The notes under the pieces were generated by a model. That model did not search any database, had not been told where the DNA came from, and was given only the letters and a program-made list of their open reading frames with translations. Source: Lachnospiraceae bacterium (GTDB taxonomy: Bacteria; Bacillota; Clostridia; Lachnospirales; Lachnospiraceae). Taken from it: 64,000 nucleotides of DNA. Location of the stretch: positions 34,397 through 98,396 of the forward strand of contig JAFUNK010000003.1 in the NCBI GenBank assembly GCA_017482205.1, in the 5' to 3' direction. Position numbers and translations under genes: made by a program. This document shows positions 42,829-51,227 of this stretch, one piece after another (within the stretch, counting starts at the first letter, position 1; every line of letters begins with the position of its first letter).

Positions 42829-44655
42829 ATGAGAAAAAATAACCATATTGGAAAATTGATAGGGTACGAAAGAACAAGAGCGGGACTACAGATGGAAGAG
42901 CTTTGCGCGGGATTGTGCTCACGGAGCTTTTTAGTACGTGTAGAAAACGGTTCCCGAAACTGCGAGAAGATATTGACAGATGCCCTATTGCAAAGAGCAG
43001 GCGTGTCTGCTGACAAATTTGTATATATGATTAACACGGAAGAGCAGGACTGGCTGCTTTTAAGAGAAAAGTTAATTTCAGCAGTGGATGCCGGAGATGA
43101 AGAAAGAGCGGCACCGCTTATGGAGCAATACCATGAGATGACGGAAAACCATTGTAAATTGCACCGCCAGTTACTTTTGCTTTTAAAGGTGATGCTTTCG
43201 TGGAAAAATAATGGTAATAAAGCAGAAATGCAAAGCCGGCTCAGGGAAGCGTGGAGAATTACCATGACAGGTACGGCTATGGAAAAAATTCCGGATATGC
43301 ATGCGGAAAATAAACACCTGACTTTGACGGAATTTGTTCTGGTAATGATGCATTACCGTATATTAGAGGAGCAGGAGAAAATAAAAGAAGCGGCAGAAGG
43401 ATATAAAAAACTGCTTCGTTATCTGGAAATATCTTCCGATGAAGAAGACCGGGTAAAACTGTATCCCCAGATAGCATACAGGCTTGCAAAAATATATTTG
43501 GAGCAGAAACAAGTGGCTGAGGCAGTAGCCTTGGCAGAAAAAGCAATAGAACTGCTAAAGGTCAGAGGAAGGTTATTTTATTTACGGCAGTTTCTGGAAA
43601 TTCTTTGTACGTATAAAGAATTGGAAGCGGAAGAAAAATTGGAACTGGAAGAAATCATTGCTTCCCTTAAGTGGCTGTATAAGCGTTATGAAGTGGAAGA
43701 AGAACCTTGGACGTGGAGTATTCCCTTTGGTATGGCAGAGGTGGAATTGGGAGGGAATCTGATTCGTGCCAGAAGGAAGGTATTGGGACTTTCGCAGGAA
43801 GAGTTGTCGGAGGGTATCTGCGATCCAGTGTCAATTTCCCGAATCGAGTGTTGCAAGGTAGCACCCAAACGTGAGATATACAGAAAACTGCTGGAACGGG
43901 TCGGCATGACCGGAAGCCGGTTTGAAAACGTGGTGCAGATGGAACAGCCGGAGTTGATGGAGTTAGCGATGAGGATTGGTATTCTGTTAAGTCATACTAA
44001 GGGTGAAGAAGCAGAACCTTTGATTGCGGAACTGGAACAGAAAATGAAGCATGCAGGAAAGTTCGCAAGGCAATATTTGTTGAATGTAAAAGCAATTGCG
44101 TTATATGACCAGGAAAAAATAACGGCAGAGGAACATACAGCAATGCAGGAAGAGGCACTATATATGACATTACCGCAGGTTGATTTGGAGAAATTGGCAG
44201 AGTGGAGCTTTTCCAGATTGGAAGTAAACATAATTAATATGCTTTCTTATTCTTGTGAAGCTACTGGAAAAGCAGAAGAAATGATAGAATTGTTACAAAT
44301 TATTCGAAGGCAGTATGAAAACAAGCCGTTTGCTTTGGAACATTATGTAGTAGGATATGAATTAACGATGAGAAATTTGGGAAATTTACTTGGGAATTGT
44401 GGAAGATATAAAGAGGCGATAGAAATAGCGGACAAGGGAATTAGATTAGGAGTACAAGCAGGAAGAGGCGTTATACTAAGTACAGCATTGTATGATTGTG
44501 GTTGGGATATGGAGCAAATGTGGAAGACTGGACAATATACTAAAAAAGAAAGCCTTCCATATGTGAAGGCTTCCTATGCGTTAAATTGTATCCTTGGAAT
44601 AGAATCAGTCCAAGAGTTTTTAAAAGAACATATACATAATTTGTATTTGAATTAA
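42829..44655 (+). CDS. Duplicated XRE-HTH/TPR regulator
   Basis: A 608-residue cytoplasmic regulator with two copies of an HTH-plus-helical-repeat layout. The first HTH spans about residues 7-40 (IGKLIGYERTRAGLQMEELC, then SRSFLVRVENGSR). The second is about 307-340 (LIRARRKVLGLSQEELSEGI, then PVSISRIE). Each is followed by TPR-like helical pairs (LAEKAIELLK, EAIEIADKGIRLGV). This is the architecture of RRNPP-type peptide sensors such as PlcR and Rgg, but doubled. Its stop codon overlaps that of a convergent small secreted peptide gene. The 3' part is more AT-rich than the 5' part. Confidence 0.88.
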   Translation: MRKNNHIGKLIGYERTRAGLQMEELCAGLCSRSFLVRVENGSRNCEKILTDALLQRAGVSADKFVYMINTEEQDWLLLREKLISAVDAGDEERAAPLMEQYHEMTENHCKLHRQLLLLLKVMLSWKNNGNKAEMQSRLREAWRITMTGTAMEKIPDMHAENKHLTLTEFVLVMMHYRILEEQEKIKEAAEGYKKLLRYLEISSDEEDRVKLYPQIAYRLAKIYLEQKQVAEAVALAEKAIELLKVRGRLFYLRQFLEILCTYKELEAEEKLELEEIIASLKWLYKRYEVEEEPWTWSIPFGMAEVELGGNLIRARRKVLGLSQEELSEGICDPVSISRIECCKVAPKREIYRKLLERVGMTGSRFENVVQMEQPELMELAMRIGILLSHTKGEEAEPLIAELEQKMKHAGKFARQYLLNVKAIALYDQEKITAEEHTAMQEEALYMTLPQVDLEKLAEWSFSRLEVNIINMLSYSCEATGKAEEMIELLQIIRRQYENKPFALEHYVVGYELTMRNLGNLLGNCGRYKEAIEIADKGIRLGVQAGRGVILSTALYDCGWDMEQMWKTGQYTKKESLPYVKASYALNCILGIESVQEFLKEHIHNLYLN

Positions 44656-44795
44656 ATTCCATAAGGTTTTTGTTTAATATCAGATCTCGCCATCATAGTA
44701 ACTTCACTATCAGCAGCAGGTGCTACGGTAGCAACAGCCTGAGCAGCTAAAAGACAAATGGCAACAACAGCAATAAATTTTTTGATTTTTTTCAT
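44652..44795 (-). CDS. 47-residue secreted peptide, putative signal
   Basis: A short gene with AAGGAG and 9-nt spacing before the ATG at 44795. The product starts MKKIKKFIAVVAICLLAAQ, a textbook signal peptide, with likely cleavage after AQA or APAA, leaving a C-terminal DSEVTMMARSDIKQKPYGI. Its stop codon overlaps the stop of the convergent HTH-TPR regulator. The size matches PapR-type pro-peptides (48 residues in Bacillus). I infer an exported signal for the regulator; a small cell-envelope peptide is the alternative. Confidence 0.65.
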   Translation of the reverse strand: MKKIKKFIAVVAICLLAAQAVATVAPAADSEVTMMARSDIKQKPYGI

Positions 44796-44842
44796 GATAA
44801 AGTTCTCCTTTTTCTTTTGAAGTTTTAATAAGTTGAGTAGAT

Positions 44843-44923
44843 TTTATAAGGAGAAGTAAGAAGTAACCATAACAGAACTGGCACACTTTTTTTTTGAAGC
44901 AAAATGTGCCACTTTTGTTATGG
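44843..44923 (-). promoter_or_regulatory. 57-bp inverted repeat and -10 box upstream of peptide gene
   Basis: 44867-44923 is a long inverted repeat: CCATAACA pairs with TGTTATGG and TGGCACA with TGTGCCA, with A/T runs in the centre. Downstream, in the peptide direction, TATAAA (44848-44843) is a good -10 box. The position 17 bp above it, at the very edge of the repeat, reads TATGGT, not a -35 consensus. This is what an activator-dependent promoter looks like. Confidence 0.6.
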
Positions 44924-45071
44924 AAAGATGTGTGAAAAGGCCGTAGTATTAATCTGAAAATGAAAAAGAGTTCGGAACACGGTTCCCTTGTAAGCGCTTG
45001 AATTTAGGAATTCAGAATGAACGTACATAGTATAAAAAGTATTAACCCCGTGCCGAAAACTTTTCATTTTC

Positions 45072-45154
45072 CAACCGGTTCAGATAATAGGGGACCGTCG
45101 GTGGAATATGGTACGGAAATGCTTATGAAGCCGACATTTTGAACCGGGGGCTTT
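45072..45154 (+). ncRNA. Possible structured RNA before a strong terminator
   Basis: CCGGTTCA (45073-45080) pairs with TGAACCGG (45140-45147), enclosing GTCGG ... CCGAC (near 45098 and 45132). It is followed at once by a strong terminator and no reading frame is evident. This would suit a small RNA or a leader. I cannot assign it to a known family. Confidence 0.3.
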
Positions 45155-45214
45155 ACTGTATCCTGCAAAGCAGTCGTAAACAAATACGGAAGCTTGCAGG
45201 ATACAGTTTTTTTT
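45155..45214 (+). terminator. Strong Rho-independent terminator
   Basis: ACTGTATCCTGCAA (45155-45168) pairs perfectly with TTGCAGGATACAGT (45194-45207), followed by eight T in total. No gene is found immediately upstream on this strand, which implies an unannotated transcript ending here. Confidence 0.8.
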
Positions 45215-45247
45215 GAGCATAGATTTCTGGTGAATGCTTTTTTCAAA

Positions 45248-45494
45248 ATGGGCATAAATGGATCTTTTTCTGCTCCAATGCCCAAAAAAATTGAATTATA
45301 CATTGAAAACATGTTGTTTTGGGCATTATGGGATGTTTTTTTCTGTTTAGTGCCCACAAAATTGCAACAAAGTGCTAAAATATGGGCACTAGCACCACTT
45401 TTTTAGCCTTCTATGCCCAAAACTATCAAAATAACCGTAAAAATTCATTGGTTTTGGGCATCACCATGCAAAAATATGTTGTATATGCCCAAAA
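45248..45494. repeat. Array of eight alternating TGCCCA(AAA) / TGGGCA motifs
   Basis: Motif copies start at 45248, 45278, 45317, 45350, 45382, 45413, 45452 and 45485, alternating in orientation (ATGGGCAT, ATGCCCAAAA, TTTTGGGCAT, GTGCCCACAAAA, ATGGGCAC, ATGCCCAAAA, TTTTGGGCAT, ATGCCCAAAA). Spacings are 30-39 bp, and the 39/33 pattern recurs after 135 bp. Two pairs form perfect 10-bp arms. No coding capacity; possible multi-site operator or serial hairpins ahead of ppdK. Confidence 0.7.
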
Positions 45495-45706
45495 TGCAAC
45501 TTACTCTATCTGACAGTGTGTTCGGAATCCGGTCGCTGGTTTGTAAAAGTGTATATAGCAGAAACTTTTTTCTGAAAAGAGCAAACTAGAAGTATCAAAA
45601 ATATGTAACTGCTTACAAATTTGGTTAAAATGCATGAAAGAGAATAGGAAGTTTTGGGTAGAATAGACGAAAGTTCTTTCCTTTTAGAAGAAATGAATTA
45701 AATTGC

Positions 45707-48612: not shown

Positions 48613-49578
48613 ATGATACTCCATACAGGTCTGCGGACAGATATTCCGGCTTTTTATGCAGAGTGGTTTGCGAATCGTCTCAAAGAAGGTTATGTGATGG
48701 TTCGAAACCCATATAATCCTATTCAGGTAACCAAATATAATATTTCACCGGATGTGGTGGATTTGATTTCTTTTTGTACCAAAAATCCGGCTTCCTTTTT
48801 GCCTTATATGGATTTGTTAAAGGAATATGGGCAGTATTGGTTTGTTACCATTACTCCTTATGGAAAGGAAATTGAGCCAAAAGTACCGGAAAAAGAAAGT
48901 GTTATGGAAGCCTTTAAAGCACTTTCAGGGAAGGTTGGTGTCGATTCCATCGGTTGGCGCTATGACCCGATTTTTGTTTCCGATATCTATACGGTACGGA
49001 AACATATAGAAGATTTTGAAAAAATGGCAAGTACTTTGTCCGGATATACCCATACCTGTGTTATTAGTTTTATTGATTTGTATCAAAAGGTATTGCGTAA
49101 TTTCCCGGAAGTACGGGAAGTCAAAAAAGTGGAACGCATTGAGCTGGCAAAAGAATTTGTACGTATCGGCAACAAATACGGTATGGTCATTAAATCTTGT
49201 GCAGAAGGCACAGAGCTAGAAGCATACGGGGTAGACTGCAGCGGATGCATGACGGTTTCCGTGGCAGAAAGAGCGATAGGTTGTTCCTTAAATGTGCCTA
49301 AGGTAAAAGGTGCAAGAAAGGAATGTGGCTGTTTGTTGGGGTGTGATATCGGCGCCTATAATACATGTGGACATCTTTGCCGATATTGTTATGCAAATTA
49401 TGATGTAAAGACTGTGATGGAAAATATGAAGAATCATAACCCGGAGTCGCCCCTGCTGCTGGGACATTTAAATCAAGATGATGTGATTCATGTTGCAAAA
49501 CAGGAGAGCTTTAAGGATATGCAATTAACGTTATGGTCTCTTAGCGGGGATTTCCAGAAAGTGTTGAACAATACGTAG
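48613..49578 (+). CDS. DUF1848 protein, radical-SAM-like Cys cluster
   Basis: A 321-residue protein. It begins ILHTGLRTDIPAFYAEWF and carries a C-terminal cysteine cluster: GVDCSGC, GARKECGCLLGCDIGAYNTC, GHLCRYCYANYD. The CxxxCxxC-like arrangement and barrel-like spacing match DUF1848, which is thought to be related to radical SAM or DNA photoproduct lyase-type enzymes. Substrate unknown. Single gene between the ppdK terminator and the next promoter. Confidence 0.85.
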   Translation: MILHTGLRTDIPAFYAEWFANRLKEGYVMVRNPYNPIQVTKYNISPDVVDLISFCTKNPASFLPYMDLLKEYGQYWFVTITPYGKEIEPKVPEKESVMEAFKALSGKVGVDSIGWRYDPIFVSDIYTVRKHIEDFEKMASTLSGYTHTCVISFIDLYQKVLRNFPEVREVKKVERIELAKEFVRIGNKYGMVIKSCAEGTELEAYGVDCSGCMTVSVAERAIGCSLNVPKVKGARKECGCLLGCDIGAYNTCGHLCRYCYANYDVKTVMENMKNHNPESPLLLGHLNQDDVIHVAKQESFKDMQLTLWSLSGDFQKVLNNT

Positions 49579-49682: not shown

Positions 49683-51227
49683 ATGGATTCACAAAACAAT
49701 CAGTTTGGCGGACAGCAGAATGGTATGCCAATGAATGATCCCAATGTGCAGTATACACAGCAACCTAATGCACAGTATACACAGCAACCTAATGCACAGT
49801 ATACACAGCAACCTAATGCACAGTATACACAGCAACCTAATGCACAGTATGCACAGCAGCCCAATGCACAGTATGCACAGCAGCCTAATGCGCAGTATGC
49901 ACAGCAACCTAATATGCAGTATACACAGCAGCCCAATGCGCAGTATGCACAGCAATCTAATATGCAGTACGCACAGCAGCCCAACATGCAGTATCCCATG
50001 AATAATGCACCTCAGAAGAAGAGCAAGGCAGGAGTGATTATTGCCAGCATTATTGCAGGAGTCATTGTTATACTGGGCGTTATTCTGGCAGTGTTATTTA
50101 TAGGTGGGAATAAGGATAAAGACAACGACAGAGATGCAGCTGCCATAACAGAAACAACAGAAGAACCTGAGGAAACACCGGAACCAGTTGAAGAGACACC
50201 GGAACCTGAAGTGACAGAGGAACCCACACCGGAACCTGAAGTAACAGAGGAGCCTACACCGGAACCGATTGAAGAGACACCGGAACCTGTTGTGATATCA
50301 GGAGGTGTTGAGGACGGTATGGCAAGTTTTACTGCATATACCAATGAAGCAGTAGAATATCTGGTTATACATAGCAGTCAGTGGGAACCTAACTCTTTAG
50401 TTTATACAGATACAGAGAAATTCATTGTTTTATCTGATCAGGACGTAAGATATTTCATGGTAATTGGTGATGAAGTATATTATTCTGTTTTCGATGAAAT
50501 GACAGAGACTGCAGGCCTTTGGAAGTGTGATATAGCAGAGGGGGCAACTCCTGAGTTATTGCTTGACGGTACACAGGTACTGGCATTCTGCTATGTTGAC
50601 GGAAATATTTATTTTGATAACTATGATGATGAGTATTCCTTCTGGTGTTATGAATTGGATACAGGAGATTATTACTGTGTAGACCCTGACAGACATGCAT
50701 TAAACTATTACAATATTCTTGATGGTTATGTATATTACGAATGTCTGAACGACGGCTGCATTTATAAGATGAGCGTGGATGGAAGTGACAAAGAGTACCT
50801 GTTCAGCCTTTCCGATTACGGTTTGGGTGGTACAAAGTGTATGACTGCATTTGATGTGGCAGGTGATACATATCTCTCATTTATCGGTGATGACAGTTGC
50901 ATGTATATTACAACTGAGGATGGCTCTGAATATGAAGTTGTAGCAACTGATTTGCAGGAGTTTGATGTTCACCAGGATATTTATTTTGAAGACGGATACC
51001 TGTATTATTCCGATATGAACGGAACAGAAATTCATATGCTGGGTATTGAAGAATATCTGACCACCGATGTGATGGAAATTCCCAATGAAGTTATCAGCTA
51101 TGACAGCTTCTACTACTTTGAAGTAAAGCAGGGAATGATTTTCATTGAACTGTATGACGGCAATAATGAAATCCGTGTAATTGACAGTAAGACTGGTGAA
51201 GAATACAATGTATTTGATTTTTCATAA
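49683..51227 (+). CDS. DUF5050-type membrane protein with N-terminal QYTQQPNA repeats
   Basis: A 514-residue protein. About residues 22-101 are ten 8-residue repeats (A/M)QY(T/A)QQPN on the cytoplasmic side. A membrane helix follows (GVIIASIIAGVIVILGVILA, near 120), then a Glu/Pro/Thr stalk with EETPEPV and TEEPTPEP repeats, and an extracytoplasmic domain with Tyr-rich blades (YYSVFDEMTETAGLWKCD, GNIYFDNYDDEYSFWCYE, GYVYYECLNDGCIYKM) like the protein at 28415. Function unknown; likely cell-surface sensing or binding. Confidence 0.8.
   Translation: MDSQNNQFGGQQNGMPMNDPNVQYTQQPNAQYTQQPNAQYTQQPNAQYTQQPNAQYAQQPNAQYAQQPNAQYAQQPNMQYTQQPNAQYAQQSNMQYAQQPNMQYPMNNAPQKKSKAGVIIASIIAGVIVILGVILAVLFIGGNKDKDNDRDAAAITETTEEPEETPEPVEETPEPEVTEEPTPEPEVTEEPTPEPIEETPEPVVISGGVEDGMASFTAYTNEAVEYLVIHSSQWEPNSLVYTDTEKFIVLSDQDVRYFMVIGDEVYYSVFDEMTETAGLWKCDIAEGATPELLLDGTQVLAFCYVDGNIYFDNYDDEYSFWCYELDTGDYYCVDPDRHALNYYNILDGYVYYECLNDGCIYKMSVDGSDKEYLFSLSDYGLGGTKCMTAFDVAGDTYLSFIGDDSCMYITTEDGSEYEVVATDLQEFDVHQDIYFEDGYLYYSDMNGTEIHMLGIEEYLTTDVMEIPNEVISYDSFYYFEVKQGMIFIELYDGNNEIRVIDSKTGEEYNVFDFS
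49746..49985 (+). repeat. Ten 24-bp tandem repeats, in frame
   Basis: Units of GCACAGTATACACAGCAACC plus TAAT, ten in tandem, coding for (A/M)QY(T/A)QQPN. Units 2-4 are identical in DNA, others differ at a few bases, so recent slippage is likely. Because the unit is a multiple of three, length change would keep the frame. Confidence 0.95.

Follow-up and report, generated by a model that had tools for sequence, protein, structure and literature searches.

The DNA analysed here, referred to as the window, is a stretch of 64,000 nucleotides from a Lachnospiraceae bacterium (assembly GCA_017482205.1, contig JAFUNK010000003.1, positions 34,397 to 98,396 of the forward strand). Its positions 42829 to 44923 harbored a large regulator with a doubled helix-turn-helix (HTH) and tetratricopeptide repeat (TPR) unit, a short convergent open reading frame (ORF) for a putative pro-peptide, and a 57 bp inverted repeat. 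This module is probably a peptide-responsive activator of the RRNPP type, in a new form with two receptor units in a single chain, that runs a regulon of conflict and defence genes. By sequence comparison, the arrangement was found to be conserved, the receptor to be homologous to RRNPP receptors and duplicated, regulator and operator to co-vary, half-sites and -10 elements to keep a defined geometry, and additional sites to be present elsewhere.

A tandem regulator in a single chain

The regulator (42829..44655, plus strand, 608 aa) displayed two XRE HTH plus TPR units, as judged from its ORF, Pfam matches and profile comparison. The first HTH (residues about 6-60; 42844..43008, plus strand) had no Pfam HTH match and was placed by the family alignment and by alignment of the two halves, while the second (residues about 309-363; 43753..43917, plus strand) matched HTH_31 (1.1e-7) and HTH_3 (2.2e-7). 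TPR models were matched in both halves, with TPR_2, TPR_10 and TPR_14 above cut-off. The halves were homologous over 253 aligned profile columns that spanned the HTH as well as the TPR region (hhalign probability 99.9, E 3e-32) and, on this alignment, the 608 aa chain is an internal tandem duplication. The family profile matched PlcR across residues 312-613 (E 5e-7), i.e. approximately the whole length of PlcR on the second half, and Lmo0325, ComR, 5w4m and 4yv6 by their N-terminal or HTH parts; the last two were labelled transcriptional regulators in the search output, and we take them to be Rgg. With aligned halves and matches to PlcR and ComR, the doubled RRNPP-like layout given in a preliminary description of this DNA was correct by sequence.

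Three relatives (L051, L052 and L089) displayed two adjacent single-unit genes of ~310 aa each, with the convergent peptide behind the second and repeats upstream of the peptide. They are likely ancestral (pre-fusion) or secondary split forms of the tandem receptor. A single-unit relative of 315 aa was also encountered in the genome of the window (L088; G000:C1, 1435-2382); an inverted repeat of score 16.5 lay downstream of it and, by the automatic rule given below, it was without convergent peptide.

A putative convergent pro-peptide and its occurrence in relatives

The ORF of the putative pro-peptide (44652..44795, minus strand, 47 aa) was convergent with the regulator and overlapped its end by 4 bp, and its ATG was preceded by AAGGAG, read from the sequence as a ribosome binding site (44805..44810, minus strand); the convergent ORF noted in the preliminary description was present. 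By a simple rule, its product displayed a basic N-terminus and a hydrophobic stretch, a putative secretion signal, and it had a C-terminal tail of 19 residues that included TMMARSDIKQKP.

Homologue surveys covered 100 loci in Lachnospiraceae relatives. The protein of the window was matched in 17 of 61 genomes (E 0.001), the family profile, at 1e-30, in 31 of 298 genomes of the family (four candidates scored per genome), and Acetatifactor muris DSM 23669 carried a homologue, L196, at least in part. The long homologues, of 480 aa or more, amounted to 63 distinct regulators. A neighbouring peptide was accepted automatically when a convergent ORF of 28-110 aa displayed an ATG, a ribosome binding site, a signal-peptide-like start and a stop at -40 to +250 from the regulator stop. 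Such an ORF was found beside 43 of the 63 long homologues, 20 of which shared the 4 bp overlap of the window; the same rule was passed by none of 64 control ORFs in a first set and by four of 255 in a larger one. A second set of 16 homologues (15 of 21 further loci and one faecal phage scaffold, six of the 16 repeating earlier loci) displayed the peptide ORF in 13 cases, or in eight of the ten loci that were new to it. Homologous regulators devoid of a neighbouring signal-peptide ORF, which would have spoken against the pairing according to the preliminary description, were therefore not the rule.

The comparison of C-termini envisaged there brought out a core of seven residues, G-I-x-P-[LC]-[SND]-D, common to the tails of the convergent peptides in a Gibbs search. 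With 40 restarts each for the real and shuffled sets (12 shuffles), the core likelihood was 261 for the 43 rule-passing peptides (226-242 when shuffled) and 349 for 56 peptides (270-287 when shuffled), the latter set being composed of the 43, six peptides behind shorter regulators, three found by eye and five from the second set, minus one near-duplicate. Six restarts each gave 264 against 217-236 for the 43 peptides and 383 against 273-293 for 60 peptides, and did not converge on the 56 (280 against 259-283). The peptide of the window displayed TMMARSD (44679..44699, minus strand, by motif search), a weak version of the shared core, while its nearest relative, L002, displayed GIILCSD. Between these two, the proportions of nonsynonymous (pN) and synonymous (pS) differences were 0.35 and 0.57 (pN/pS about 0.6), and the ratio of nonsynonymous to synonymous substitution rates (dN/dS) was 0.33-0.71 for seven pairs from six sequences in two other orthologue groups, small numbers in both cases. 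The frame was kept, and neither frameshifts nor a dN/dS near 1, both named earlier as signs against the ORF, were encountered.

The inverted repeat as probable operator

The 57 bp inverted repeat reported in the preliminary description was recovered at 44867..44923 by repeat scoring and co-variation. It contains two divergent candidate operator half-sites, delimited by a genome pattern scan and by their spacing to -10 elements: TGTGCCAGTTCTGTTATGG on the peptide side (44867..44885, minus strand) and TGTGCCACTTTTGTTATGG on the distal side (44905..44923, plus strand). With a score of at least 14 at +20 to +480 behind the regulator as criterion, repeats were found behind 40 of 61 long regulators and 47 of 88 regulators of any length, above chance, as none of 176 shuffled regions displayed one; 16 of 255 other genes did. 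Loops were 3 to 33 long. Some of the scored repeats are probably not operators, for example at L039, where the repeat lies over the ribosome binding site.

Co-variation was followed in 47 regulators of 540 aa or more, a set compiled separately and from which those without a repeat were dropped. Arm similarity correlated with regulator identity (Mantel r 0.72, reached in 0 of 2000 permutations), the corresponding values over all pairs being 0.305 for the adjacent and 0.047 for the distal flank. Among pairs below 45 % identity, the arms still gave 0.67, against 0.05 and -0.09 for the adjacent and distal flanks, respectively. Since arm similarity tracks regulator similarity, the arms are most likely the operators of the regulator. 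An exploratory test of sub-sites was restricted to 33 regulators whose arms fitted either anchor motif (the others were dropped), was anchored on the proximal motif and used permutations that ignore the tree. For the promoter-proximal sub-site, the correlation was with the C-terminal HTH (partial r 0.60, or 0.49 within class), the N-terminal one contributing little (0.135, or -0.01 within class), while the distal sub-site tracked both (0.29 for the N-terminal and 0.43 for the C-terminal HTH).

The peptide promoter displayed TAAAAT as -10 (44841..44846, minus strand) at 20 bp from the arm, and its best -35 matched only 3/6, in agreement with the good -10 and missing -35 described previously. 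On the peptide side of the 47 repeats scored behind regulators of any length, -10-like hexamers (at least 5/6) peaked at 17-20 nt from the repeat edge (5, 5, 7 and 12 cases, respectively); on the distal side they were scattered, with five at 11, five at 18 and four at 20. The repeat reads as two back-to-back half-sites, more clearly so on the peptide side. In the window, the distal arm also faced outwards onto a weaker hexamer, TAGTAT (44944..44949, plus strand), which may serve as -10 of a distal promoter; this, like the single arms at other genes described below, was absent from the preliminary description.

Half-sites at other genes

The arm pattern gave eight matches with up to two mismatches in the genome of the window, including the two home arms, where 0.13 were expected from composition; 955 kb of other loci gave one. 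Five more were found at three mismatches, a level at which (up to three) a reversed control pattern gave four. One of them, C27:93649, was rejected as a chance match, about two being expected by composition and four having been found with the reversed control. A -10 of at least 5/6 at 19-20 bp accompanied five of the eight sites (background 0.020), or four of six without the home arms, and the best -35 at the eight sites matched 1-4 of 6. Where the -10 was best, the -35 matched 1-3 of 6, which is as expected of activator-dependent promoters. Since single arms were encountered at other genes, most of them with an equally spaced -10, one arm appears to be a complete operator and the repeat a pair of divergent promoters. 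Bridging of both arms in cis by the doubled sensor, as put forward in the preliminary description, is probably not needed.

The half-site at C18:76061 preceded a gene for a TIR-TM protein (PADLOC, 1.7e-73). At C24:2403, a 99-aa ORF was followed by an SNF2/HKD helicase (1.8e-134), DUF4391 and further genes of a type III restriction operon, namely a type III methyltransferase (6e-217), RhuM (PDC-S05, 3.9e-139) and a type III restriction enzyme (8e-295). Downstream of C27:119436 were a 445-aa protein without assigned family and a KAP NTPase (PDC-S20, 5e-49), and downstream of C27:115031 an AAA-ATPase_like/PDDEXK_9 protein (no PADLOC match) and an AAA helicase with DUF2726. The half-site at C26:36117 was followed by two small ORFs, then by a WXG100-like protein that runs into the contig end and is truncated there (Pfam 4e-5, under the cut-off), and that at C27:337134 by a protein whose start was similar to the WXG100-like one, cut after 22 codons. 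No YukC/EssB of a type VII secretion system was found in the genome of the window (73.7 % complete), and these WXG100-like targets are therefore without apparent secretion machine in an incomplete genome. PADLOC matches below 1e-40 were displayed by six of ten target-operon proteins and by none of ten window proteins (one at 6.7e-36, two weaker), and three of the five readable promoters led to a defence family. This link of the half-sites in trans to defence families is suggestive, as a small comparison and not a genome-wide enrichment.

Output genes in relatives were found mainly on the distal side of the repeat. G026 encoded a pair of radical-SAM proteins together with an ABC exporter and a BtrH_N protein that fell slightly short of its cut-off, and G314 a radical-SAM/SPASM maturase (best NCBIfam match PapB-like at 1e-54, short of its cut-off). 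ABC genes were found in G339 and G097, while the small proteins of G090 and G014 looked secreted by eye and matched no family. A half-site common to G027 and G017 preceded a large secreted protein, with RHS repeats seen in that of G017. The recurring output theme is conflict and export. On one contig (G097:C5), two tandem regulators (L062 and L063) lay ~12 kb apart with nitrogenase-like genes between them, according to ORF reading, and each was followed by a repeat with TATAAT on its distal side. At L021 (G014:C99), a very strong repeat (score 30) was located 48 bp behind a tandem regulator for which no peptide ORF could be seen, and the peptide gene may have been lost.

Proposed mechanism and alternatives

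The receptor would act as a "dimer in one chain", a tandem duplicate of the RRNPP unit. Its pro-peptide would be exported and processed, and a C-terminal fragment with the common core would presumably be taken up again and recognised by one TPR half or by both. In its liganded state, the receptor would occupy an asymmetric half-site of about 19 bp, with one sub-site per HTH, of which the second HTH probably reads the promoter-proximal one, and would recruit RNA polymerase to a -10 that lies at a distance of about 20 bp and is without a good -35; the sign of regulation would thus be activation. At the home locus, the two back-to-back half-sites would fire outwards, with the peptide gene on one side (positive feedback) and, on the opposite side, an output operon in several relatives. 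Elsewhere in the genome of the window, single half-sites would place the TIR-TM, SNF2/type III restriction, KAP NTPase, AAA/PD-(D/E)XK and WXG100-like genes under the same control, and defence would become density-dependent. The preliminary description had considered a peptide that activates its own promoter: the RRNPP-like sensor, its own secreted peptide and an operator at the peptide promoter were strongly supported by comparison, whereas autoregulation alone was too narrow, as single half-sites elsewhere point to targets in trans. We would give even chances to the wider proposition that tandem RRNPP receptors of gut Lachnospiraceae read directional two-module operators and that, here, the peptide couples unlinked anti-phage and WXG100-like genes to density. 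The receptor would then represent a natural single chain whose two DNA specificities appear diverged. Since peptide and operator would both be defined and the regulon could be read, it would become directly testable whether gut bacteria raise anti-phage defence together by a chemical signal.

Several observations weigh against this mechanism. No SBP_bac_5 (OppA) protein was found in the genome of the window (73.7 % complete), while each of the other 19 among the 20 genomes with a regulator that were searched displayed one, though only by weaker matches inside frames of 866-895 aa in G017, G027 and G339. The first residues of TMMARSD fit the core consensus poorly. The automatic peptide rule was failed by 20 of the 63 long homologues and by three of the 16 in the second set. 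Among the 20, L032, L037 and L047 do carry a signal-peptide ORF by eye, L046 and L070 possibly one with a non-ATG start (by eye; doubtful). L003 is interrupted by Ns, its peptide ORF being otherwise visible, L045 consists of a short frame, and L081 leaves just 78 nt downstream. No peptide ORF was seen behind L040, L062, L063, L066, L072, L073 and L075-L077, nor behind L007, L014 and L021; L062 and L063 retain the repeat without it. L020, a paralogue in the genome of the window, displayed a single arm only. The operator of one clade overlaps a fair -35 (5/6 in L009, 4/6 in L011 and L020), which would also suit repression. The distal -10 of the window matched just 4/6, and those of the trans sites C26:36117 and C27:337134 only 3/6. 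A regulon in trans was clear only in the genome of the window, because G014 and G020 displayed half-sites at home only (up to one mismatch), the five matches of G090 were all on one contig around its two systems, and the CCATGACGTTTT pattern, matched in five of 12 genomes, had eight of its 11 matches at or beside home loci.

Some of these observations would also agree with other explanations. The short ORF could itself be the output, a small bacteriocin-like or membrane-active peptide, with the regulator sensing something else. Regulators with a repeat and without peptide would fit, as would the small secreted-looking proteins on the distal repeat side in L217 and L218 (by eye, no Pfam match), but one core is common to the convergent ORFs while output genes differ, their position behind the receptor is fixed, and the receptor shares homology with PlcR and ComR, which bind such peptides; we consider this unlikely. 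Opposite regulation, in which the apo-receptor would repress over the -35 region and the peptide relieve it, is rather unlikely: the end of the operator does lie at the -35 position, with a -35 inside it in the clade mentioned above, yet the best -10 sites in the genome of the window have a poor -35, and a spacing of 19-20 bp suits an activator that touches the polymerase.

That the repeat is a dispersed mobile or REP-like (repetitive extragenic palindromic) element or a terminator, and the ORF spurious, is very improbable. Although inverted repeats were found behind control genes and some regulator repeats, such as that of L039, are doubtful operators, the strong matches elsewhere in the genome of the window are single arms facing genes and not whole repeats, the arm follows the regulator, loop length is variable, and the peptides are in frame. 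The tight convergent overlap, together with HTH models of antitoxins matched weakly and far below cut-offs, could recall a toxin-antitoxin-like pair of a small hydrophobic toxin and the regulator as antitoxin. Long variable tails with a common core after a signal-like start, operators at unrelated genes and the homology to PlcR-type receptors make such a pair highly improbable. The peptide-responsive activator remains the preferred explanation.

Relation to known systems

PlcR-PapR from the Bacillus cereus group displays the same order of XRE HTH and TPRs, and the alignment covered PlcR almost entirely. PlcR has a short secreted pro-peptide adjoining the receptor, the peptide gene being inside the regulon, and its single HTH-TPR unit forms a homodimer on the palindromic PlcR box. 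The present system differs by two receptor units per chain, asymmetric half-sites, a convergent peptide gene, and other host group and peptides; with a tandem unit and an asymmetric half-site found singly, it departs from the single unit and palindromic box of the PlcR subfamily. The HTH of the streptococcal Rgg-SHP and ComR-ComS systems is similar to that of this regulator, whereas their receptors consist of a single unit. In the Rgg and ComR systems, the operator lies close to the -35 of the peptide gene and some radical-SAM peptide operons are under control of the receptor, a parallel to the radical-SAM targets in relatives.

According to the part of PMC10075063 covered here, SHP is exported by PptAB. 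In Clostridium acetobutylicum, Qsr-Qsp likewise associates a clostridial RRNPP regulator with a secreted precursor of 39-50 aa and occurs as several systems per genome; as far as the covered part of PMC7376267 goes, Qsr has, unlike the tandem regulator, one N-terminal Xre-type HTH region followed by 6-8 TPRs, and the Qsp precursor ORF follows the regulator and displays conserved C-terminal L, P and W, unlike the core found here. A main survey tool, RRNPP_detector, gives 285-473 aa as the length of validated receptors and searches between 250-500 aa (covered part of PMC10075063). Three of its five criteria applied here (small pro-peptide, TPRs and adjacency), and secretion was judged by a simple rule only. 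Homology to RRNPP receptors (PlcR at E 5e-7, the HTH of ComR, TPR models) and a 47-aa pro-peptide ORF overlapping the regulator by 4 bp place the system among RRNPP receptors; because 608 aa exceeds the 250-500 aa given in that source, it was classed as a variant and not as an ordinary member. As this length results from the tandem duplication, tandem receptors fall outside the default length filter as stated there and would be missed by it. The word Lachnospira was absent from the main texts of PMC10075063, PMC9765709 and PMC12700828, and no tandem receptor was mentioned in the covered parts of these three and of PMC7376267. No paper on RRNPP systems of Lachnospiraceae was found among the matches listed, judged partly by titles and abstract openings, with preprints and most subscription journals outside the search.

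Genomic home and further features of the window

A plasmid search gave no match to the system. A phage search gave five, of which the three examined were short, unverified and unannotated faecal scaffolds; a phage home was not persuasive.

On the distal side of the repeat, 44966..45215 (plus strand) is a possible, uncertain, short untranslated transcript with a terminator-like hairpin at its end (45155-45215), possibly what the two-way promoter transcribes in the distal direction. A conserved non-coding RNA was rejected for this region: it had no Rfam family (the single near match, mir-290, was the hairpin itself) and no relative in 60 other genomes of the genus, and it was predicted to fold stably on both strands (z -3.3, and -3.6 for the opposite strand).

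Elsewhere in the window, 48613-49578 matched the PADLOC model RTasDUF1848 (6.7e-36), with no defence context noticed nearby, and 49683-51227 encoded a predicted protein whose N-terminal part displayed about ten almost identical repeats of the QYTQQPNA type. Several copies of ATGCCC/GGGCAT, partly as inverted pairs, were grouped in ~250 bp (45245-45500) upstream of a pyruvate phosphate dikinase gene and possibly form another operator array.

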